A stretch of 64,000 nucleotides of DNA from Synechococcus sp. A18-25c (GTDB taxonomy: Bacteria > Cyanobacteriota > Cyanobacteriia > PCC-6307 > Cyanobiaceae): assembly GCF_014280035.1 (NCBI RefSeq), contig NZ_CP047957.1:2108001-2172000 (forward strand). Reading direction: 5' to 3'. The position numbers and the translations under genes were made by a program. The notes beneath the pieces are model-generated. The model was not told the origin of the DNA. It made no database searches and was given only the letters and a program-made list of their open reading frames with translations. This document shows, piece by piece, positions 54,671 to 64,000 of this stretch. How positions within the stretch are numbered: the first letter of the stretch is position 1; every line of letters begins with the position of its first letter.

Positions 54671-54850
54671 TCAAGGAAGCAAGGCGGCGATTCCGATCAC
54701 ACCAACAAAAATCCCAAGAAACAGAAAACCCATTTTGGTCATCTTGGATTCATGGTCATCGACACCTTCCTCGACTGCCTCTTGCAGGTCGGCGCGAAAC
54801 TCATCAATGGCTTTCGACTTTTCGGCATCGCTGGGGATCTGACGAGGCAT
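54671..54850 (-). CDS. Small tail-anchored membrane protein with HES motif
   Basis: A 59-residue protein: a charged N-terminal half (about 1-38, DAEKSKAIDEFRADLQEAVEEG) and a single C-terminal membrane helix (about 40-58, GFLFLGIFVGVIGIAALL), i.e. tail-anchored. The juxtamembrane R-x13-HES-K-x2-K (HES at 33-35) recurs in the neighbouring cyclic-nucleotide-binding protein at identical spacing. Function unknown. The ATG at 54850 (MPRQIPSD) follows usual length; an in-frame start at 54871 adds seven residues. It is 33 bases downstream of the CNB gene, so both probably form one transcript ended by the bidirectional terminator. Confidence 0.6.
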   Translation of the reverse strand: MPRQIPSDAEKSKAIDEFRADLQEAVEEGVDDHESKMTKMGFLFLGIFVGVIGIAALLP

Positions 54851-54883
54851 CGTTTCGCTGACAAGGGACAAATGGTGAGCCGA

Positions 54884-55402
54884 CTAGGCGCGATGGAAGA
54901 ACCAGTAAGACGCGCCAGCTAAGAGCACCAGCAGAATAATCGGCACGGCGATGGCAGCCATACCGTTGTGGCTTTTCACCACGCGAGATTCATGGGCCAC
55001 GACGGCATCACGAATGCTGACGTGCATCTCCTCGCGAAGACGTTCGAGGTCAGAATCCAGAGAAGCATCGTCATACAGCGCCTTTAGGTGCTCGAACGTT
55101 GATTTCCCAAGCATCAAGCTTTTCTCTGGCTTGACGTAGAGAATTTCCATGAGCTCCTCTCTGGGAATCTCGATGAGCTGACAGGCTTTGGCAGCGCGGG
55201 CGCTGGCGATTCGAGGACGGCTATCAATAATTTCAACTTCTCCGAACACATGCCCGGGGCCATGGGTTGAATCGACGCCTTCGCCCGTCTCGGGATATTG
55301 CGTTGTCATCTCAATCATGCCCGCTTTCACGAGATAGATGGCACTGCTGGCATCTTCCGAGTGGTAGATGTAGTCGCCTTTATCGACAGCGAACTTGCGC
55401 AT
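54884..55402 (-). CDS. Cyclic-nucleotide-binding domain protein with C-terminal membrane anchor
   Basis: A 172-residue protein: a cNMP-binding beta-roll (about 1-100) beginning MRKFAVDKGDYIYHSEDASS and containing VKAGMIEMTT and GPGHVFGEVEIIDSRPRIASARA, the phosphate-binding cassette (FGE followed by R near xRxAS). An amphipathic linker (about 110-145) has LREEMHVSIRDAVVAHESR and precedes a single helix (about 147-169, AIAVPIILLVLLAGASYWFF) and FHRA tail. No helix-turn-helix is present, so it is not a Crp/Fnr transcription factor; it could bind cAMP at a membrane. The ATG at 55402 is chosen over a longer, poorly conserved frame. Confidence 0.8.
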   Translation of the reverse strand: MRKFAVDKGDYIYHSEDASSAIYLVKAGMIEMTTQYPETGEGVDSTHGPGHVFGEVEIIDSRPRIASARAAKACQLIEIPREELMEILYVKPEKSLMLGKSTFEHLKALYDDASLDSDLERLREEMHVSIRDAVVAHESRVVKSHNGMAAIAVPIILLVLLAGASYWFFHRA

Positions 55403-55479: not shown

Positions 55480-56382
55480 ATGGCGAGCCAGCCCAACAAT
55501 CGCCACGCACTCCGAAAAGGTCTCATCATTGCTGGGGTTGTCGCTGCTGGTGCCATCGGCTGGAGCGTTCTCAAGCCAAAGCCCAGCCCTCCTCCGGTTG
55601 TCAGCCAACCCAAAGAAGTCACAGCGCTCGGCCGTCTGACACCTGAGGGAAGCCTTGTTCCTCTTTCCATTCCGGCAGGAACCGCTGGTGGGAATGAGAT
55701 CGTTAAGCGTTGGTTTGTCGGCGAGGGCGACACGATCACCAAGGGGCAAGTGCTCGTCAGACTCAGCAGTTACGACGAATTGCAATCGGCACTGGCACAA
55801 GCTGAATCCAAATTGAAGTCGACAGGTGCGCTGTTGCCCTTTTTGAAGGTCAGCCAAAACCGCGGCAAAGAACTTTTCCAGGACGGTGCCATTTCTGAGG
55901 AAGAACTGGCCAAAACCACCGCCAGCATCCTGGAACGGCAAGCTGACGTCGCTGCCGCTAAGGCGTCCGTCGAGCAGGCCCGTAGCCAATTGTCGTCAGC
56001 GGAGGTTCGCTCTCCGCTCGACGGTCAGCTGATCAGGATCTACAGCTGGCCAGGAATGAAGCAGACCGATGAAGGATTAGCAGTCATCGGCCGCACCAAT
56101 TCGATGCAAGTTTGGGCGCAGGTTTTTCAGACCGACGTCAATCGATTGCGCATTGGCCAATTAGCAACCGTCAAAGCCGAAACCGGAGGTTTTGAAGGTG
56201 AAGTGCAGGCCACGCTGAAATCGATTATCGGCAAAGTATCCCAGAGAGACTTATTTGCAGTAGCAGCCAACAACGATGTCAATGCTCGCGTCATTCTTGT
56301 GAAACTTGACATCGCCCCTGAATACCAACAGCAGCTGTCCAATCTGAGCGGCTTGAACGTCATCGTTCGCTTCAAGCCATGA
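55480..56382 (+). CDS. DevB-type ABC exporter membrane fusion protein
   Basis: A 300-residue periplasmic adaptor (HlyD family). N-terminal membrane segment LIIAGVVAAGAIGWSVL, a lipoyl-like half (LVPLSIPAGTAGGNEIVKRWFV, GDTITKGQVLVRLSSYDELQ), a helical hairpin (SALAQAESKLKS ... AKASVEQARSQLSSAEVRSPLDGQLIR) and beta-barrel. It resembles DevB of heterocyst glycolipid export, which links DevCA to the TolC-like HgdD. This organism does not make heterocysts, so the substrate is different and unknown. Start ATG at 55480, divergent from the CNB protein gene; its stop overlaps devC by 4 bases. Confidence 0.88.
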   Translation: MASQPNNRHALRKGLIIAGVVAAGAIGWSVLKPKPSPPPVVSQPKEVTALGRLTPEGSLVPLSIPAGTAGGNEIVKRWFVGEGDTITKGQVLVRLSSYDELQSALAQAESKLKSTGALLPFLKVSQNRGKELFQDGAISEEELAKTTASILERQADVAAAKASVEQARSQLSSAEVRSPLDGQLIRIYSWPGMKQTDEGLAVIGRTNSMQVWAQVFQTDVNRLRIGQLATVKAETGGFEGEVQATLKSIIGKVSQRDLFAVAANNDVNARVILVKLDIAPEYQQQLSNLSGLNVIVRFKP

Positions 56383-57578
56383 GCCAAATCACATCTTGGT
56401 TTCAGAGGTTAAATCTCAACGACCTACCTCTAGCTTGGCTGCAACTCAAACGACAACCAGTGCGCTACTTGGTTGCCGTCACGGGAATCGGATTTGCCGC
56501 TTTGTTGATGTACATGCAGCTTGGCTTTCAATCCGGCCTTCTGAAAAGCGCCACCAAGTTCTACAACGCACTTGAAACAGATCTCGTGCTGATTAGCCCT
56601 GCGACAGTGAATAGCGGCAGTTTTCAGCAGTTTCCTCAATCACAGCTTTTTCAAGCACTGGGCATCGAAGGCATTCGCGAAACCATTCCGCTTTATATCG
56701 CCAACATCAATGCACAACAACTCGACGGGATCAAGCCAACATCCCTTCGGATGATTGGATACGACCCTGATCTCCAGGTTCTGAATGTCCAAGCCATTAA
56801 TGACCAAAGCGGCAAACTGAAGACTCCTGGTTTTGTTCTGTTCGACACCCTTGGATCAAGGATTAAGACAGGTCCAGTTGGGAAAACTTTTGAAGCTGAC
56901 GGGCCTCTCGACATGATCTCATCAGACTTTGAAAAGACGTTCAGAATCAAAGGCTTATTCTCACTTGGCTCAACCTTCGTCGCCGACAGCAATCTGATTG
57001 GCAGCGAAGCAACAGCGCTACAGCTTGCATCAAGACAAATCAATCTTGGCGAAATTTCCCTAGGTCTGATTCGAGTCGACAAACCCACTGATGTTCCGAG
57101 AGTTCAGGCCGATCTTCGCGCGCTCTACGGCGATGAAATCCAAGTTTTGACGAAGCCGCAGCTTATTAAGCAAGAAAGAGACTACTGGAACAATGTTTCA
57201 TCTTTCGGCGTCATCTTTGGTTTCGGAACTATTATGGGTTTACTGGTAGGGGGTGTCGTTGTTTACCAGGTTCTCTACACCGATGTCAGCGACCACCTCA
57301 AGGAATACGCAACCTTGAAGGCGATGGGCTTTTCAAGCCAATTCATCCTCATCGTGGTGATTCAAGAAGCCATTCTCTTGGGCGTGTCAGCATTCATCCC
57401 TGCGACCATTGTGAGTGCAGCTCTTTACGCAGGTTTGAGTGCTGTGTCAGGCATTGAACTGCAAATGACGCCTGACAAATCTCTACTGGTTGGCGCTTTA
57501 ACCATCAGCACCTGCGCCATTGCCTCTGCAATCGCGATCCGCAAGCTCAGTGATGCCGACCCCGCATCCGTCTTCTAA
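56379..57578 (+). CDS. DevC-type ABC exporter permease
   Basis: A 399-residue permease with FtsX/MacB-like topology: an N-terminal helix (LVAVTGIGFAALLMYMQLGF), a large extracytoplasmic domain (about 65-270) and three C-terminal helices (GVIFGFGTIMGLLVGGVVVY, ILIVVIQEAILLGVSAF, LLVGALTISTCAIASAIAIR). The DHLKEYATLKAMGFSS stretch is the FtsX-type coupling segment. It works with DevA and DevB as one exporter. Overlaps devB (4 bases) and precedes devA by 24 bases. The gene is visibly more AT-rich than the window average. Confidence 0.9.
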   Translation: MSQITSWFQRLNLNDLPLAWLQLKRQPVRYLVAVTGIGFAALLMYMQLGFQSGLLKSATKFYNALETDLVLISPATVNSGSFQQFPQSQLFQALGIEGIRETIPLYIANINAQQLDGIKPTSLRMIGYDPDLQVLNVQAINDQSGKLKTPGFVLFDTLGSRIKTGPVGKTFEADGPLDMISSDFEKTFRIKGLFSLGSTFVADSNLIGSEATALQLASRQINLGEISLGLIRVDKPTDVPRVQADLRALYGDEIQVLTKPQLIKQERDYWNNVSSFGVIFGFGTIMGLLVGGVVVYQVLYTDVSDHLKEYATLKAMGFSSQFILIVVIQEAILLGVSAFIPATIVSAALYAGLSAVSGIELQMTPDKSLLVGALTISTCAIASAIAIRKLSDADPASVF

Positions 57579-57602
57579 CGCCACATGCACGACGACATCA
57601 CG

Positions 57603-58304
57603 ATGAAACCCGTCATCAGCACTCAAAATCTCTGCCACAGCTATGGGAAAGGCGAGCTGAGAACAGAAATTCTGCACAACTTAAATTTTGATGTTTACAG
57701 CGGTGAAATCACACTGCTTGTGGGGCCCTCAGGCAGTGGGAAGAGCACGCTTTTGACGCTGCTTGGAGCCTTGCGATCCGTCGAAGAAGGGTCCATTCAG
57801 GTTCTCAACCAAGAATTGAACGGAGCCAGTGAAGACGTGCTAATGCAGACGCGACGTCGCATTGGTTTTATTTTTCAAAGCCACAACCTCGTCTCGTCAC
57901 TGACGGTTCTGCAGAATGTGCAAATTCTGCTTCAGCTCACTGAAGCTAATCCGCAGAAACGTCGTGATAAAGCTTGTGAATTACTCGAAGCCGTCGGACT
58001 CAGCCATCGACTCAATCACTACCCAGAAGAGCTCTCCGGTGGTCAGCGTCAACGCGTTGCGATTGCACGGGCTTTAGCACCAGAGCCTGATCTCATCTTG
58101 GCTGATGAGCCAACAGCATCCTTGGACAGTCAGTCTGGTCAGGACGTGGTTGAACTGCTCGGCAAACTTGCACGCGATCGAGGCAGTGCTGTGCTTCTCG
58201 TCACCCACGATCTGCGTCTTCTGAAAGATGCTGATCGTATCTGGGCCATCGAAGACGGCCGCATCAATCCTTGGGATGAATCCAAAAACAGCTCAGCCCA
58301 CTAA
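57603..58304 (+). CDS. DevA-type ABC exporter ATPase
   Basis: A 233-residue ATPase: Walker A LLVGPSGSGKSTLLTLLGAL, Q-loop IGFIFQSHNLVSSLTVLQNV, signature LSGGQRQRVAIARALA, Walker B LILADEPTASLD and switch H (VTHDLR). This set is the LolD/MacB/DevA subgroup. ATG at 57603 (MKPVISTQNL) is preferred; 57585 (MHDDIT) is also in frame. It completes the devBCA-like exporter and is followed by the hydrolase gene after 11 bases, suggesting one operon of five genes with the MFS. Confidence 0.93.
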   Translation: MKPVISTQNLCHSYGKGELRTEILHNLNFDVYSGEITLLVGPSGSGKSTLLTLLGALRSVEEGSIQVLNQELNGASEDVLMQTRRRIGFIFQSHNLVSSLTVLQNVQILLQLTEANPQKRRDKACELLEAVGLSHRLNHYPEELSGGQRQRVAIARALAPEPDLILADEPTASLDSQSGQDVVELLGKLARDRGSAVLLVTHDLRLLKDADRIWAIEDGRINPWDESKNSSAH

Positions 58305-58315
58305 CACAAGATCTC

Positions 58316-59296
58316 ATGCCAGCTCAGGACACAACATCCCATTCAGCAGCATCCATTTATCCTCAAGAGTGGCTGGATGAGTGGAACTGGGGCGATCACA
58401 GGATCAGCTTCGTCAGAACGTCAAACACCACCAATGCCCAAACCGCTGTGCTGATCCATGGCTTTGGGGCTTGCAAGGAGCACTGGCGCCACAACGTCTC
58501 AGCACTGACAGAGCAGTTCAATGTGGCAGCGGTCGATCTTCTGGGATTTGGGTCAAGCGATAAGCCTCAATCCCGACTTGCATCCGAGCCGGAAGTTGAC
58601 GGCAGCACGCTCTATTGCATCGATTTATGGGCTCAGCAGGTGGTGAGCTTTCTCGACGCTTACAAACTTCAAAACGTGCAGCTTGTCGGCAACTCCATCG
58701 GTGGCGTCGTCGCACTGCGTGCAGCTGAAATGCTTGAGACCCGATCCACACCCGCAGAAGGTGTCGTTCTGATCGACTGCGCTCAACGCGCCATTGACGA
58801 CAAACGTGTGGCAGAACAACCGCCATTCCGTGCACTGGGCAGACCGTTGCTCAAACAACTGGTGAGACAACGCTGGATCACCGGTCCCTTGTTTCGCAGC
58901 CTCGCGCGACCATCCATCATCCGCAAAGTTTTGGAACTGGCTTATCCCACCGGAGCAGGCGTCGATGACCAACTGGTGTCCGTTCTCCATCGGGCAACCA
59001 CAGATTCGGGAGCGCTGGAATCATTCCGAGGCTTTATCAACTTGTTCCAGGATCACCTTGCACCTGAGCTTCTTGAGAGGCTCACAACGCCTGTGCGTGT
59101 GATCTGGGGAGAAGCTGATCCCTGGGAGCCGGTGGAACAGGCCCAACGATGGACGGCTTTTGAGAGTGTCTATGAACTGAAAACAGTCCCATGCCTGGGC
59201 CACTGCCCCCATGACGAAGCCCCTGACCAGATCAACCCGATCCTGATCAATATGCTCTGCACCGCAATCAGCAACACCACAGGAGAACCCGAATGA
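58316..59296 (+). CDS. Alpha/beta-fold hydrolase
   Basis: A 326-residue serine hydrolase: oxyanion-hole loop LIHGFGACKEHW, nucleophile elbow LVGNSIGGVVALRA, acid VIWGEADPWEP and histidine CLGHCPHDEAPDQ, all in order. The family includes lipases, esterases, C-C hydrolases and haloalkane dehalogenases; the substrate cannot be told. No signal peptide is visible, so it is cytosolic. It is downstream of devBCA and overlaps the MFS gene by 4 bases; it might tailor the exported compound. Confidence 0.88.
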   Translation: MPAQDTTSHSAASIYPQEWLDEWNWGDHRISFVRTSNTTNAQTAVLIHGFGACKEHWRHNVSALTEQFNVAAVDLLGFGSSDKPQSRLASEPEVDGSTLYCIDLWAQQVVSFLDAYKLQNVQLVGNSIGGVVALRAAEMLETRSTPAEGVVLIDCAQRAIDDKRVAEQPPFRALGRPLLKQLVRQRWITGPLFRSLARPSIIRKVLELAYPTGAGVDDQLVSVLHRATTDSGALESFRGFINLFQDHLAPELLERLTTPVRVIWGEADPWEPVEQAQRWTAFESVYELKTVPCLGHCPHDEAPDQINPILINMLCTAISNTTGEPE

Positions 59297-60495
59297 ACAA
59301 GCGTGTCTTGATCATTCTCTGCTTGGTGGTGGCCGTCGACTCCGCCAGCTTTGGCTTGCTTCTCCCTGTTGTTCCGTTCTTTGTGGATCAGCTGACGGGA
59401 TCCTTCAATGCAATCGCCGTCACCAGTGTGACAGCAACCTATTCCGGGCTTCAGTTTCTAGGTGCCCCCGTGATCGGCCGGCTCTCAGATCGCTGGGGTC
59501 GTCGTGGAATCCTCACCGTCGCAGTCGGCATTAGTGCCCTTGCACTGATTGGCCAGGGGCTCTCCACTTCACTCACGATGTTGCTGCTGTTTTCAGCTCT
59601 GAACGGTGCCTCATCAGGCGTCTTTGCGGTTTCACAAGCAATGGTGGCCGACGCCGTTGAAGACCGAGACCAACGAACGGTGGGGTTCGGAGCCATCGGG
59701 GCTGCACTTGGGCTGGGATTCATCATTGGACCAGGGCTGGGAGGTGCTCTCGGGGCATTGAATCCGCGCTATCCGTTTGTGGTGGCGGCAGCCTTCTGCA
59801 TCATCAACGTGATCCTGATCCGCCTCCACCTTCCAGAATCACGTCAACGCAAATCTCCAACGGAGCTTGATCAACAGCGCCAACCCAACCCTCTGCTGAC
59901 GAGCGGATCGGGCCGCCTGCGCAAACTGATCTCCATCTATTTCCTCTTCTATCTCGGCTTCAGCGCATTCTCGGGAATTTTCGTGCTCGCAGCAAAGGAT
60001 CGCTTCAACTGGGGACCCCAACCCACGTCCCTAGTTTTGGTGTATGTCGGAGTCGTGGCTGTGATCGTTCAGGGAGCGCTGCTCCCTCGTCTGCTGAAGC
60101 GATTGCGACCTGATCGTCTGTCCATGATCGGCCTCACGCTGGTTGCCATCGCGATGTTTGGCGTTTCAGTGATCAAACAAGGCAGCAGTCTTTACATCAC
60201 ACAACTCCTGTTTGCTGGTGGTGTCGGTCTCAGCACACCTGGGCTTCGCTCGTCGATGTCGCTGTGCGTTTCAGAAGATCAACAGGGTGTGCTTGGTGGG
60301 CTCTCCCAATCCGTGGTCAGCCTGACATCCCTCGTGGGACCTCTGCTCGCCGGACAGTTGTTCGAACGTGCTGGCTACAGCGCGACGTTTCAAGTTCAGG
60401 CTTACCTGGTGATTGGAGCCATTGCACTACTCATCTCGATGCCGAGGATCCCTTCACAAACTCACCCTCAAGAGGTGAAAACACCCTCGGCATAG
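59293..60495 (+). CDS. MFS transporter (TetA/multidrug-like, 12 TM)
   Basis: A 400-residue MFS protein. The start MNKRVLIILCLVVAVDSASFGLLLPVVPFF, motif A (GRLSDRWGRRGIL) and FIIGPGLGGALGAL (motif C-like, GxxxGPxxGG) mark a proton-driven antiporter of the DHA family (tetracycline/multidrug). It is coupled to the hydrolase gene by a 4-base overlap and is the last gene of the plus-strand run. Its last 28 bases overlap the convergent VOC gene. Together with devBCA it gives two different exporters in one operon. Confidence 0.88.
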   Translation: MNKRVLIILCLVVAVDSASFGLLLPVVPFFVDQLTGSFNAIAVTSVTATYSGLQFLGAPVIGRLSDRWGRRGILTVAVGISALALIGQGLSTSLTMLLLFSALNGASSGVFAVSQAMVADAVEDRDQRTVGFGAIGAALGLGFIIGPGLGGALGALNPRYPFVVAAAFCIINVILIRLHLPESRQRKSPTELDQQRQPNPLLTSGSGRLRKLISIYFLFYLGFSAFSGIFVLAAKDRFNWGPQPTSLVLVYVGVVAVIVQGALLPRLLKRLRPDRLSMIGLTLVAIAMFGVSVIKQGSSLYITQLLFAGGVGLSTPGLRSSMSLCVSEDQQGVLGGLSQSVVSLTSLVGPLLAGQLFERAGYSATFQVQAYLVIGAIALLISMPRIPSQTHPQEVKTPSA

Positions 60496-60884
60496 CCAAT
60501 CAATTCAATTTGATGCCCATCGGGATCTGAAATGAACAGGGCGCGACAACGAGGTCCATAATCAAACCCCGTCACTGCAAGACCTCGCTCTTCCAGTGAT
60601 TGTTGAACCTTGGCCATCGATTCATAAGTCACGCGAAAGGCGACATGGCGCATGGCAACAGTGCTGTGATCCGGAACAGACTTCATCGGAACGGAATCAG
60701 AGGGAAACAAGTTCAAATAATTCCCTTCTGCCACACGAAGGAGGTAAGGAGGGCCTTGCTTAAGACCTTCCATCGATGCGGGCTTGAAACCAAGAATGTC
60801 CTGGTACCACTGCATCGAACGATCAGGATCACTGACCGTAAGCGCAACATGGTCGAGAGCTTCAATTGGAAGACGTTTGGTCAT
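60468..60884 (-). CDS. VOC/glyoxalase-like protein
   Basis: A 138-residue vicinal-oxygen-chelate protein with two beta-alpha-beta-beta-beta halves: ALDHVALTVSDPDRSMQWYQDILGF (metal H in LDHVAL), VAMRHVAFRV (H) and FISDPDGHQIELIGY (E). These are the standard VOC metal ligands of glyoxalase I, fosfomycin-resistance and ring-cleavage dioxygenases; the role is unknown. It lies 43 bases downstream of the Rieske gene on the same strand, a context suggesting work on an aromatic or oxidised compound. Confidence 0.85.
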   Translation of the reverse strand: MTKRLPIEALDHVALTVSDPDRSMQWYQDILGFKPASMEGLKQGPPYLLRVAEGNYLNLFPSDSVPMKSVPDHSTVAMRHVAFRVTYESMAKVQQSLEERGLAVTGFDYGPRCRALFISDPDGHQIELIGYAEGVFTS

Positions 60885-60927
60885 TGATTCGTGTTCGTTG
60901 ATAGATCAGAAACCTGCAGAATTAAAA

Positions 60928-61977
60928 TCAGATCAGCAGACCATCGTTACGCTTTTGGCGAAGCATGCGACGAAGAGCCAAGGTCGATACATCACTGGCC
61001 ACCAAGAGATCCCCATGACCATCAAGATCAGGCATGGCTGGAGTCAGCGTTTCAACAGTGCGTTGATCTTCAGCCATGAACCGATCCACACGTCCTCGAG
61101 CATTGCCATCGGCAAGTGGGCTGCGGAGGAAAGAACGGAAGTGACGCCATAAATTTCGCGTGGTGCCATCACCCATGGGCACATGGGCGGTCATCAACGA
61201 AATCTGAAAATCACCAAAGACCACCCGAACCAAGGACACATTGGCCAACCAGAGCTGGATGTGCTGTTCACCAGCATCATCGGACTCCTGATCAACGCCC
61301 TTCTCATCCGCCTGGTTGAACCAGGCACGCAGACCACGCCCTTGGTCGGCACGGTAGTGACGATCGCGAGGTGCAATCACACGCTCGTAGACGCTGTCAT
61401 CGCGACACCATTGATCCACTGGCATCAACTGATCAGGGGCCATCGCCCCGAAACTGCCGCTGTGAACAAATGGTGCATGGGTTAGATCCATGAATGCTTC
61501 CAGCACCCGCAACCAATGGGCTTGCCAGACGACGGTTCCTTCTAGAGAGCGCCAGCCACTGTCATCTGATTCTGGAATGGGGCCAACACCAGGCAAAGCT
61601 GGCAAGTCATCAGCCGCAGATTGCCCTGTGGGATCCCACCAGATCCAGATGTATCCATACTGCTCACGACAGGGCAACCCACCCAGTGTTGCGCGACGCG
61701 GAATTGGATTGTCATCGCCCTGAGCGGGAATTTTGGCGCAATCCCCATCTGACTGGAAGCACCAACCGTGATAGGGGCATGACAGACCCTGTTCACCGAC
61801 ATTGCCCGCACTCAGGCTGGCTCCCTTGTGGGGACAGCGATCTGGAACAATCGAGACTTTGCCATCGAGGGATCTCCAGATCGCAAAAACCTCGCCATGG
61901 AAATGGAGTTTCTGGACGCTGCCTTCGGAGACTGCCGAAGAGAGCTCAACGGCATACCAAGCACGGATCAGCTGCAT
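60928..61977 (-). CDS. Rieske-type ring-hydroxylating oxygenase (PAO/TIC55-like)
   Basis: A 349-residue oxygenase. The N-terminal Rieske domain holds C-x-H in DRCPHKGASLSAGN and C-x2-H in LSCPYHGWCFQSDG for the 2Fe-2S cluster. The catalytic domain has AFMDLTHAPFVHSGSFG, giving the D-x2-H-x4-H mononuclear-iron motif. The layout is that of the plant-type pheophorbide oxygenase/choline-monooxygenase-like group (PAO, CAO, TIC55). Substrate unknown: chlorophyll derivatives, pterins, aromatics and others are possible. Soluble, no obvious membrane anchor at the C-terminus. It follows a small unknown gene by 15 bases. Confidence 0.88.
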   Translation of the reverse strand: MQLIRAWYAVELSSAVSEGSVQKLHFHGEVFAIWRSLDGKVSIVPDRCPHKGASLSAGNVGEQGLSCPYHGWCFQSDGDCAKIPAQGDDNPIPRRATLGGLPCREQYGYIWIWWDPTGQSAADDLPALPGVGPIPESDDSGWRSLEGTVVWQAHWLRVLEAFMDLTHAPFVHSGSFGAMAPDQLMPVDQWCRDDSVYERVIAPRDRHYRADQGRGLRAWFNQADEKGVDQESDDAGEQHIQLWLANVSLVRVVFGDFQISLMTAHVPMGDGTTRNLWRHFRSFLRSPLADGNARGRVDRFMAEDQRTVETLTPAMPDLDGHGDLLVASDVSTLALRRMLRQKRNDGLLI

Positions 61978-61992
61978 GAAAACGTTGATGGA

Positions 61993-62271
61993 TCAGGGAC
62001 CGAGATGCGTCTTCCAGAGGTCTGCGTCCTGAGACTGCATAAACCAACGACGCTCACGCAAGGCGCAGAGAAGTTCGGAAGCAGATTCGCTCTCTAAGTC
62101 GAAGCCCCAATCACTGTCAAGGCAAGTACGCAACCCATCGGTGCTGAGGCCCCGACGAAGACCTTTCTTCAGCAGGCGTCGGAGCGGAGCAGGCTCGAGC
62201 TCCACCATCAGCGCCATGGTGAGAGGCGTCCGTGGAAGGGCATCGTAATCCAGTTGATCCACAGTGATCAA
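61993..62271 (-). CDS. Unknown 92-residue protein
   Basis: A soluble, helical, acidic protein without a recognised family: EPAPLRRLLKKGLRRGLSTDGL in the middle and CALRERRWFMQSQDADLW near the end; one Cys pair. Starts ATG at 62271, overlapping the ParA-like stop by 4 bases, and ends 15 bases before the Rieske gene. This tight coupling suggests it serves one of those two proteins. Confidence 0.6.
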   Translation of the reverse strand: MITVDQLDYDALPRTPLTMALMVELEPAPLRRLLKKGLRRGLSTDGLRTCLDSDWGFDLESESASELLCALRERRWFMQSQDADLWKTHLGP

Positions 62272-63035
62272 TCGCCGGGAGACTCGAGTAGAACGGTCGC
62301 CAGGTCACGGACAGCATCAGTCCAGGCGTGGTTGGGAAACTCAAGAACAGCCAAACCGCCACTTGCCAACGTCAGAAGATCCTCACTGAGAGGAAGAATT
62401 GACCCGATGGAAACCTCATAACTTTCCTGCATCCGCAGACGCACCTCATCACGACTGAATTGACTGGGGAGTTTGTTCATCACAAGTTGAATATTCATCA
62501 CATCAAGACGCTGAGCCACCTCAATCGCAACCGCGGTTCCCAAATAATCCTGACTGTCTGGACGCATCACCATGATCAAATGATCAGCAATAGCTGCAGA
62601 AAGCAGAGTTTCTTCATTAATCCCTGGGTGAGTATCAACAAGGACAAAATCAAGCTTTAAGTCATCAGCAATAGAGAACATTGCGTCATTCAGCTTTTCA
62701 ACCTGATAGCCCTCGCGCAGAAGACGAGCAATTCGATCACTGTCAAGAGAAGCAGGCAAAAGGAAGATGCGACCCCTTGCTGACTTCACAGGGTCAGGTG
62801 TCACCTCATGCACACAATCACGGATTTGCACATCTTCCTGCAGATAATCGTTCAGACATCGATCACCCTCAGAGAGAGAAAAATCAAACAGAACATGAAT
62901 CCCAGGGGATGCCAGATCAGTATCTAAGATGGCAACGCGCTTGCCTTGAAGGGCCAACGCAGTTGAAAGGTTGGCCGTCAGGTTTGATTTACCAGTACCG
63001 CCTCGGAACGAATGAATTGCAATGATCTGCGTCAT
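62268..63035 (-). CDS. ParA/MinD-like ATPase
   Basis: A 255-residue P-loop ATPase with the deviant Walker A FRGGTGKSNLTANLS (MinD/ParA lysine pattern altered to RGGTGKS), ILDTDLASPGIHVLF and FVLVDTHPGINEETLLSA. The pattern fits the subgroup sometimes associated with type VI-like, TolC or exopolysaccharide loci rather than chromosome partition. It may position or energise the export apparatus. ATG at 63035 (MTQIIAI); two residues longer is possible. It is downstream of the TolC-like gene and overlaps the small unknown gene. Confidence 0.85.
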   Translation of the reverse strand: MTQIIAIHSFRGGTGKSNLTANLSTALALQGKRVAILDTDLASPGIHVLFDFSLSEGDRCLNDYLQEDVQIRDCVHEVTPDPVKSARGRIFLLPASLDSDRIARLLREGYQVEKLNDAMFSIADDLKLDFVLVDTHPGINEETLLSAAIADHLIMVMRPDSQDYLGTAVAIEVAQRLDVMNIQLVMNKLPSQFSRDEVRLRMQESYEVSIGSILPLSEDLLTLASGGLAVLEFPNHAWTDAVRDLATVLLESPGD

Positions 63036-63135
63036 GATCAATTCGCCCTGAGGACGAAATGGGGTGTGAGTCGGGCTTCAGATTACCTCGATATCAGCCC
63101 AGGAACCGTTTTGAACCTGGGTCTTAAAATTAGAT

Positions 63136-64000
63136 TCAGTCGTCAGAGTCAGACTGGGCCCTCTGCAGCACGGAACTCAAACCAACTGCAGCGAGTGGAT
63201 CACCAACCTGGGCGAGCAAGTCTGGGTCGTTTTGGTAGGACAAGCCACTAGCACGGGCCAGATTGACCAAGGCAAGGTTGTAATCAGCCAATTGCTCGAT
63301 GTAGGAACTCACAGCTTCCGTGAGATCTTGCTGAGATTGAACAACATCTGTAATCGTGCCGTAACCAGCATTGAACCTCTGGGACTGCAACTTGAGAGCC
63401 GACGAAGCGGCTTGCACTCGCCCTGAGGCGACAAGAACGGCCTCGCGACCATCCGTGGACTGCGCAAAGTATTCGCGGACTTCCTCAATCACGGAATTGA
63501 TCGACTGACGAGCCGCTAACTGTGCAGCAGCAGCCCGCTTTCTCGCCGCCGCTGCATCCATCCGAGCACGGCCACCATCAAAGCCAGTCAATGTAATCTG
63601 CAACACAGATTCTGAGTTCCAAAGATCACTACGGCCTGTATCAACGATGTATGGTTCACCGCTATTTGGATAGCCAAGATTCTTCGTCCAATACAAGGAA
63701 TTCACAAGCTCAATCGTTGGCCTGTAAATTGCAAGATCAATCTCCGCTTGCAACTCATTCTGCTTCACACGAGAGAGATTTTTGACAATGACCTGCCGAT
63801 ATTCGAGTGCAGAGTCAATGGTTTCTTGCAATGAGGAAGCCCACGATCCCAAAGGACTCAACGCTTCACTGGGCTGAATCTCCATGGAACGTGGATCATT
63901 CAGAAGTTGAGCCAACTCCGCTTGCGCAACTAACGAATCACGCTTTGCGTTGACAAGGTTGACCTCGTCTGTGCGGAGCACAGTGATCTGTTTGGCGACA
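63136..64000 (-). CDS. TolC-family outer membrane efflux protein (C-terminal part)
   Basis: The frame is open to the right edge, so the N-terminal part with the signal peptide lies outside. The 287 visible residues are mostly long amphipathic helices, with YRQVIVKNLSRVKQNELQAEID, LQITLTGFDGGRARMDAAAARKRA and FNAGYGTITDVVQSQQDLTEAVSSY. The last is the typical TolC/OEP repeat-end motif. TolC-like proteins form the outer membrane duct for tripartite exporters; the DevB-type adaptor in this window is a plausible partner (inference). The next gene (ParA-like) follows after about 100 bases on the same strand. Confidence 0.9.
   Translation of the reverse strand, partial: VAKQITVLRTDEVNLVNAKRDSLVAQAELAQLLNDPRSMEIQPSEALSPLGSWASSLQETIDSALEYRQVIVKNLSRVKQNELQAEIDLAIYRPTIELVNSLYWTKNLGYPNSGEPYIVDTGRSDLWNSESVLQITLTGFDGGRARMDAAAARKRAAAAQLAARQSINSVIEEVREYFAQSTDGREAVLVASGRVQAASSALKLQSQRFNAGYGTITDVVQSQQDLTEAVSSYIEQLADYNLALVNLARASGLSYQNDPDLLAQVGDPLAAVGLSSVLQRAQSDSDD

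Follow-up and report, generated by a model that had tools for sequence, protein, structure and literature searches.

A putative signal-controlled, ParA-linked DevBCA-TolC export island with exchangeable tailoring enzymes at a fixed site in picocyanobacterial genomes

Picocyanobacteria do not form heterocysts. The closest described relatives of the DevBCA-type pumps are MacAB-TolC and DevBCA-HgdD, the heterocyst glycolipid exporter of Anabaena. In Anabaena a single channel, HgdD, serves many DevBCA paralogues (PMC8277102). The genes for ATPases of the ParA/MinD type, among them the positioning systems McdAB, ParC/ParP, FlhG and BcsQ, frequently lie close to those for their cargo, and partner proteins contact these ATPases through basic disordered termini (PMC10241942). 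The known basic termini of such partners are N-terminal (PMC10241942). Here we describe a locus of Synechococcus sp. A18-25c in which a devBCA set stands together with genes for a TolC-type channel, a ParA-like ATPase and a Rieske oxygenase. The window, i.e. the whole stretch of DNA analysed, comprises 64,000 nucleotides (G000:C1:2108001-2172000, G000 being the genome carrying it), and the locus crosses its right edge. We read the locus, at a probability of roughly 0.58, as a tripartite exporter that is organised by ParA, controlled by signals and equipped with exchangeable tailoring enzymes.

Orthologous DevC, TolC and ParA occur in the same genomes and in one gene order in 16 whole islands. 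A genome lacking the island pump keeps a pump of another kind before the hydrolase and MFS genes with the same topology, and loci of the Nodosilinea type pair the same ParA with a DevBCA set. Gene content, linkage, the fixed site, exchange of enzyme cassettes and of the pump, co-occurrence of a common sensor tail with ParA, and catalytic and docking motifs are all read at the level of sequence. From these we infer that ParA is bound by the tail and organises the exporter, and that the substrate is a small molecule, which the locus would modify and export.

An initial annotation had placed ten genes here in two convergent runs, and open reading frame positions together with Pfam and NCBIfam matches bear out the place, strand and identity of each. 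The plus-strand run consists of devB, devC, devA, an alpha/beta hydrolase and an MFS gene, the minus-strand run of genes for a VOC protein, a Rieske oxygenase, a 92-residue protein, the ParA-like ATPase and the TolC-like channel. The runs do meet tail to tail, the MFS and VOC genes overlapping by 28 bases. Close packing of the plus run was likewise confirmed and is somewhat tighter than the range of 4-24 bases given for it: the joints are -4 (devB/devC), +6 (devC/devA), +11 (devA/hydrolase) and -4 bases (hydrolase/MFS). The unit is larger than the ten genes; it adds a cyclic-nucleotide (cNMP)-binding protein, a 66-residue transmembrane protein, crtB, two receivers and a Cache kinase, and these genes on both sides travel together with the run. 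The features in the window are:

54671..54871, minus strand: 66-residue protein with one transmembrane helix, present in all islands seen whole (48-72%)
54884..55402, minus strand: cNMP-binding domain protein with C-terminal transmembrane anchor, 172 residues, divergent from devB (PF00027, E 2.4e-16)
55483..56382, plus strand: DevB-type periplasmic adaptor (TIGR02971, 152 bits, cut-off 129)
56379..57578, plus strand: DevC permease, MacB/FtsX type (TIGR01185, 313 bits, cut-off 290)
57585..58304, plus strand: DevA ATPase (TIGR02982, 302 bits, cut-off 296)
58316..59296, plus strand: alpha/beta hydrolase (PF12697)
59293..60495, plus strand: MFS transporter, MFS1 type (PF07690, Tet-like)
60468..60884, minus strand: VOC (glyoxalase-fold) protein (PF00903)
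60928..61977, minus strand: Rieske oxygenase with VanA_C domain (PF00355, PF19112)
61993..62271, minus strand: 92-residue winged-helix protein, probable ParA cognate (AlphaFold model)
62268..63041, minus strand: ParA/MinD-like ATPase with RGGTGKSN P-loop (PF10609 and others above cut-off)
63136..64000, minus strand: TolC-type outer-membrane channel, C-terminal part (PF02321); the gene runs on to 64758

The complete tolC gene (L005:11136-12758) encodes 540 residues, its start at window position 64758 lying outside the right edge. Upstream of it follow crtB, a 344-residue DHp-receiver protein, a 123-residue receiver, a 904-residue Cache hybrid histidine kinase and pds. To the left of devB lie the cNMP-binding transmembrane protein and the 66-residue protein, which has no Pfam match, and then RRM and cca genes. 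The layout is kept in 16 whole and 5 partial islands and is thus far beyond chance.

DevB, DevC and DevA all exceed their curated NCBIfam cut-offs, and DevA carries Walker A and LSGGQ motifs. The adaptor hairpin tip R-x3-L-x6-S is the TolC docking motif; [RK]xxxLxxxxxxS is present in 16 of 16 DevB orthologues, in the R form in 7 (G000, WH7803, HJ21, GreenBA, G009, G069, G051) and in the K form in the other 9. The island thus shares with DevBCA-HgdD and MacAB-TolC an adaptor, an FtsX-type permease and an ATPase of the same curated families, as well as the docking tip and a TolC-type channel. It differs in being linked to ParA, a winged-helix protein, a cNMP protein, a phosphorelay, hydrolase, MFS and Rieske proteins. 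Unlike the Anabaena system, it occurs in organisms without heterocysts and has its own TolC, a difference given that one HgdD serves many Anabaena DevBCA paralogues. Export of heterocyst glycolipids was rejected as the default function, since these cyanobacteria lack heterocysts and glycolipid genes were not seen.

ParA, DevC, TolC and Rieske proteins were each searched in the same 101 Cyanobiaceae genomes. DevC orthologues (66-72% identity) were found in G000, G005, G009, G022, G051, G064, G069 and G090, all remaining DevC matches being at or below 41%. TolC orthologues (45-54%) were found in the same genomes minus G022 and plus G087, other TolC matches reaching 32% at most. ParA at 60% or more was present in the union of the two sets, i.e. 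in 9 of the 101 genomes. The two gaps are contig edges: in G022 (no TolC) and in G087 (no DevC) the island is cut by the contig end. The two runs, proposed to form a joint system, are linked in every genome with orthologues of their key genes, which supports that proposal, and the TolC is dedicated to the island, its orthologue being confined to island genomes and two ordinary TolC relatives of G000 lying elsewhere. Neither G034 nor G075, the two genomes of the genus to which the window belongs, has an island orthologue of any searched protein. The outlier is G054, with a ParA at 52% and three Rieske proteins and without orthologous DevC or TolC. A scan of genome contigs with the ParA alignment added Synechococcus WH7803 (ParA 82%), HJ21-Hayes, GreenBA-s, CS-1332, BO 8801 and MED650, and further Vulcanococcus limneticus, Cyanobium N.Huapi, two Aphanothece and others. 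Altogether, about twenty picocyanobacteria carry the island, 16 of them complete (including Synechococcus WH7803) and 5 partial, and comparison of synteny in Synechococcus and relatives gave one gene order across the 16 whole islands. The cNMP-binding transmembrane protein is kept in every island seen whole.

As far as contigs reach, each island lies between ndhM-pds and the RRM-cca-tsaB neighbourhood; an exception in order is MED650 (L058), where crtB is at the opposite island end and adjoins the small transmembrane gene. In 20 of 20 sampled island-free genomes (G054, whose module sits elsewhere, counted among them) the genes ndhM-pds-crtB-RRM-cca-tsaB are joined directly, with a relative of the hydrolase alone at the site, between crtB and RRM, in 11. 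These empty sites define the ends of the insert. In G034 the gap between crtB and RRM is about 30 bases, a clean empty site with no space for the 66-residue transmembrane gene. The position of crtB inside the island raises the reading that the Rieske proteins oxidise a carotenoid which is then exported. It abuts tolC in most islands, and in G000 and WH7803 (L005:12763-13710 and L054, respectively) it is unusually diverged, on a very long branch (0.68) and with a GC content at third codon positions (GC3) of 0.51 as compared to 0.75 for pds, while their pds is ordinary. The long branch may reflect faster change or replacement together with the island. Still, all 20 island-free genomes have crtB as an ordinary neighbour of pds, which makes its position an inherited one. 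The crtB of the islands largely shows the species pattern of pds, and no further carotenoid gene was seen among the island genes. We therefore hold a carotenoid substrate to be very unlikely.

Pairwise distances of island genes broadly track those of pds (Spearman 0.64-0.85), yet the pds tree requires at least 8 island gains or losses. Close relatives differ in the island (G009/G092, G069/G023 and MED650/G061). G009 has the island type of hydrolase and its sister G092 the resident type, an indication of allelic exchange at this site. G023 and G069 have hydrolases that are 79% identical to each other, which indicates island loss that left a remnant in G023. The pds of MED650 is 94% identical to that of G000, yet its island is of the other cassette type (type B, below). 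Simple vertical inheritance is contradicted by MED650 and by G009/G092. The low GC3 of ParA, kinase, receivers, TolC and crtB (0.40-0.51, versus 0.75 for pds) also fits import.

Two enzyme cassettes alternate in the island. Type A islands (G000, WH7803, HJ21-Hayes, V. limneticus, GreenBA-s, G009, G069 and others) carry the Rieske type Rsk1 and VOC, plus MFS1 where that gene is in view; type B islands (G064, G005, G090, MED650, CS-1332, BO 8801, Aphanothece and others) carry Rsk4 and Rsk3, often Rsk2, and MFS2. G051 has pieces of both cassettes with a transposase remnant in between. Of the ten genes, those for Rieske and VOC are the most replaceable part: other islands have two or three different Rieske proteins and no VOC, which is restricted to islands with an Rsk1-type Rieske. 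Iron-ligand motifs (the CxH-CxxH cluster and the mononuclear iron site) are intact in all four Rieske types, in the window Rieske as CPH-x-CPYH and ExxxDxxHxxxxH. Its closest solved structures are SxtDIOX and SxtT. It shares the Rieske plus VanA_C-type architecture and a length of 330-370 residues with SxtT/SxtDIOX, NdmA and DdmC, the similarity lying mostly in the N-terminal half and being too distant for substrate assignment. A saxitoxin-like pathway was rejected because of this distance and because the island showed no other gene of the saxitoxin type.

The strongest rival to export of an own product is a defence or detoxification island, in which the sensors detect a foreign compound, Rieske, VOC and hydrolase degrade it, and MFS and DevBCA-TolC expel it. 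The MFS protein is closest to tetracycline-efflux models and the VOC protein to fosfomycin-resistance and glyoxalase models, although every one of these model scores is far below the curated cut-off. Relatives of the Rieske in the PDB include dicamba and methylxanthine demethylases; three Rieske proteins in series, on the other hand, resemble stepwise tailoring. A resistance trait would fit the patchy distribution of the island and its frequent exchange, and some Anabaena DevBCA paralogues confer drug resistance (PMC8277102), but a dedicated TolC, ParA, winged-helix and cNMP protein would be unusual in a drug island. On balance, we regard detoxification as rather doubtful. Anti-phage defence was rejected as well: PADLOC matches were to generic ATPase and receiver families, domain-level and partial, none covering most of a protein.

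In G054, without island DevBCA, an AcrA-type adaptor and an AcrB-type pump of the resistance-nodulation-division (RND) family (PF00873, 904 bits) directly precede the hydrolase and MFS2. This run faces Rieske proteins, cNMP protein and ParA in the topology of the islands, and the sensor is also present. G000 has, elsewhere (G000:C1:142471-146235; L002, L154), an RND pump gene and, directly after it, one for a paralogue of the island hydrolase (51%), and the G054 pair looks orthologous to it by sequence (RND 57%, hydrolase 59%). In G054 the tailoring/ParA part has joined another pump. The two pairs imply that the hydrolase family was coupled to envelope pumps more than once, and it seems tied to them. 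A short KaiB-like protein, recognised by eye, is encoded upstream of the G054 adaptor-RND pair (L045:303-665).

The ParA gene and the small winged-helix gene constitute the most widely conserved core, to which the initial annotation had given no special role. The ATPase matches Pfam ParA, AAA_31 and CbiA at 56.2, 52.8 and 50.7 bits (cut-offs 27.1, 27 and 25.4). Its P-loop, FRGGTGKSN, is present in 8 of 8 aligned proteins (alignment A1), the P-loop lysine being retained and the signature lysine of the KGGxGK[ST] motif, which defines the deviant Walker ATPases of the ParA/MinD family, being replaced by arginine. The ATPase has relatives at 45-54% in Chloroflexota, in other cyanobacteria and in one planctomycete. 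The 92-residue protein is modelled by AlphaFold as a winged helix (pLDDT 90.6, pTM 0.81); it resembles generic winged helix-turn-helix folds only (Z at most 6), and Foldseek gave no match to a solved fold at E<=0.001. Its homologues lie beside ParA in other cyanobacteria, and similar small winged-helix-like proteins do so in Chloroflexota. The island ATPase is of the same superfamily as McdAB, ParC/ParP, FlhG and BcsQ and likewise adjoins a small probable cognate and a candidate cargo. In contrast to these systems, which have KGGxGK[ST], it has RGGTGKSN, a winged-helix partner, a basic C-terminal tail common to sensors and a tripartite pump as neighbour.

This tail is a stretch of about 60 residues in which the DHp-receiver protein of the window genome and a HAMP sensor of other islands both end (roughly FxxMxxxVxxRExxLxxxIxxLxIEIDxxxxxxQVxEIxxxxxFxxLxxxAxxMRxR). 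In its model, of moderate confidence, the 344-residue protein has DHp helices and a receiver as well as a long coiled coil, and it ends in a basic helix. Among the 101 genomes the tail occurs in 15 of the 16 that bear a ParA, always near a ParA, and in none of the other 85; the sixteenth, G022, is cut by the contig end. In ten further genomes 12 of 22 tail matches lie within 10 kb of a ParA. N-terminally, tail proteins have receiver, HAMP, Cache, GAF, PrsW or cNMP-binding domains. Some tail/ParA loci (L049, L080) have class III cyclases. A Pfam search with 14 tails returned scattered weak matches only. In Cyanobacteria as in Chloroflexota, sensors encoded next to this ParA bear the tail, which is, judging from sequence, a candidate docking part for ParA. 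In this role it would fit the published pattern of cargo proximity and basic partner termini of ParA/MinD ATPases (PMC10241942), apart from its C-terminal position.

Further arrangements of this ParA were observed. A second one of the same branch lies beside a glutaminase-like gene and a Cache-type sensor with the tail (L046:5891-9959 and L047:4990-8869, in G051 and G084). A third arrangement in Cyanobiaceae (L048-L053) combines ParA with a cNMP-binding tail protein and a membrane protein of about 300 residues of no named family, in L049 also with a CHASE2-adenylate cyclase. L080, L078 and other Chloroflexota loci have the ParA-small protein pair beside a class III nucleotidyl cyclase and sigma-factor-like and DNA-ligase-like genes.

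ParA also adjoins pump genes outside picocyanobacteria. In Nodosilinea PCC 7104, LEGE 06152 and two filamentous isolates it lies next to the cNMP-binding transmembrane protein, the small transmembrane protein (33-35%) and a DevBCA set, of which only DevB is in view in LEGE 06152. The winged helix is present there too, and the flanks are not those of the islands. Distant cyanobacteria have the cNMP protein next to ParA at 46-48%. In three other cyanobacterial genomes (L095, L103, L110) ParA adjoins the cNMP protein and relatives of hydrolase and MFS2. No Rieske was found at these three loci or at the Nodosilinea-type loci. These arrangements bear on the reading that a ParA signalling module and an exporter are unrelated units sharing one recombination hotspot between pds-crtB and cca. 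The site is indeed a fixed exchange locus, and the ParA-tail module occurs without a pump. However, no sampled Cyanobiaceae genome has one unit alone at the site, ParA and DevBCA are again linked, between different flanks, in distant cyanobacteria, and G054 retains a different pump in the same relative place, which makes two unrelated units unlikely.

In the signal-controlled exporter we favour, DevA and DevC would form a MacB-type pump, docked by DevB to the island-encoded TolC, and DevBCA-TolC would carry a small metabolite, probably hydrophobic or amphipathic, through both membranes. The hydrolase and the Rieske proteins, with VOC or further Rieske proteins, would modify this metabolite, and the MFS carrier would handle it at the inner membrane. 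The Cache hybrid kinase may sense a ligand outside the cytoplasmic membrane and pass phosphate to the DHp-receiver protein, whose basic coiled C-terminal tail would dock on the ParA/MinD-like ATPase and carry the signal. ParA with its winged-helix partner would then position or gate the export machinery, the cNMP-binding membrane protein adding second-messenger control. Several points weigh against this. The ATPase has arginine for the signature lysine of the ParA/MinD family, and the island tail is C-terminal, whereas the known termini of ParA partners are N-terminal. Some tail proteins of large genomes lie far from any ParA. Chloroflexota have the ParA-winged helix-tail set without DevBCA, so ParA need not act on the pump. 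No scaffold-building enzymes (polyketide synthase, non-ribosomal peptide synthetase, or terpene synthase other than crtB) were seen in the island.

The pump, the ATPase and the oxygenases are each of known kinds. No paper on the locus was found in the searchable literature (DevB/Rieske/TolC, WH7803 Rieske, ParA with exporter, ParA with HAMP in Chloroflexi); the 'devB' named in a WH7803 paper is a different gene, that of 6-phosphogluconolactonase. Nor were the combination, the dedicated TolC, the arginine-type ParA branch or the common tail found in that literature. More tentatively, a distinct ParA/MinD branch (RGGTGKS, winged-helix partner) may be steered by environmental and cyclic-nucleotide sensors via a common C-terminal tail in Cyanobacteria and Chloroflexota and here position or gate a tripartite pump. 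If true, this would be, to our knowledge, the first tripartite export pump placed by a ParA system. The island is a defined unit: sister species with and without it make natural pairs, its two enzyme cassettes are interchangeable, and it occurs in a laboratory strain, WH7803. It is a candidate answer to the role of a DevBCA pump in cyanobacteria without heterocysts, and its uncatalogued C-terminal tail may account for the way in which signals are relayed to ParA-type ATPases across two phyla.

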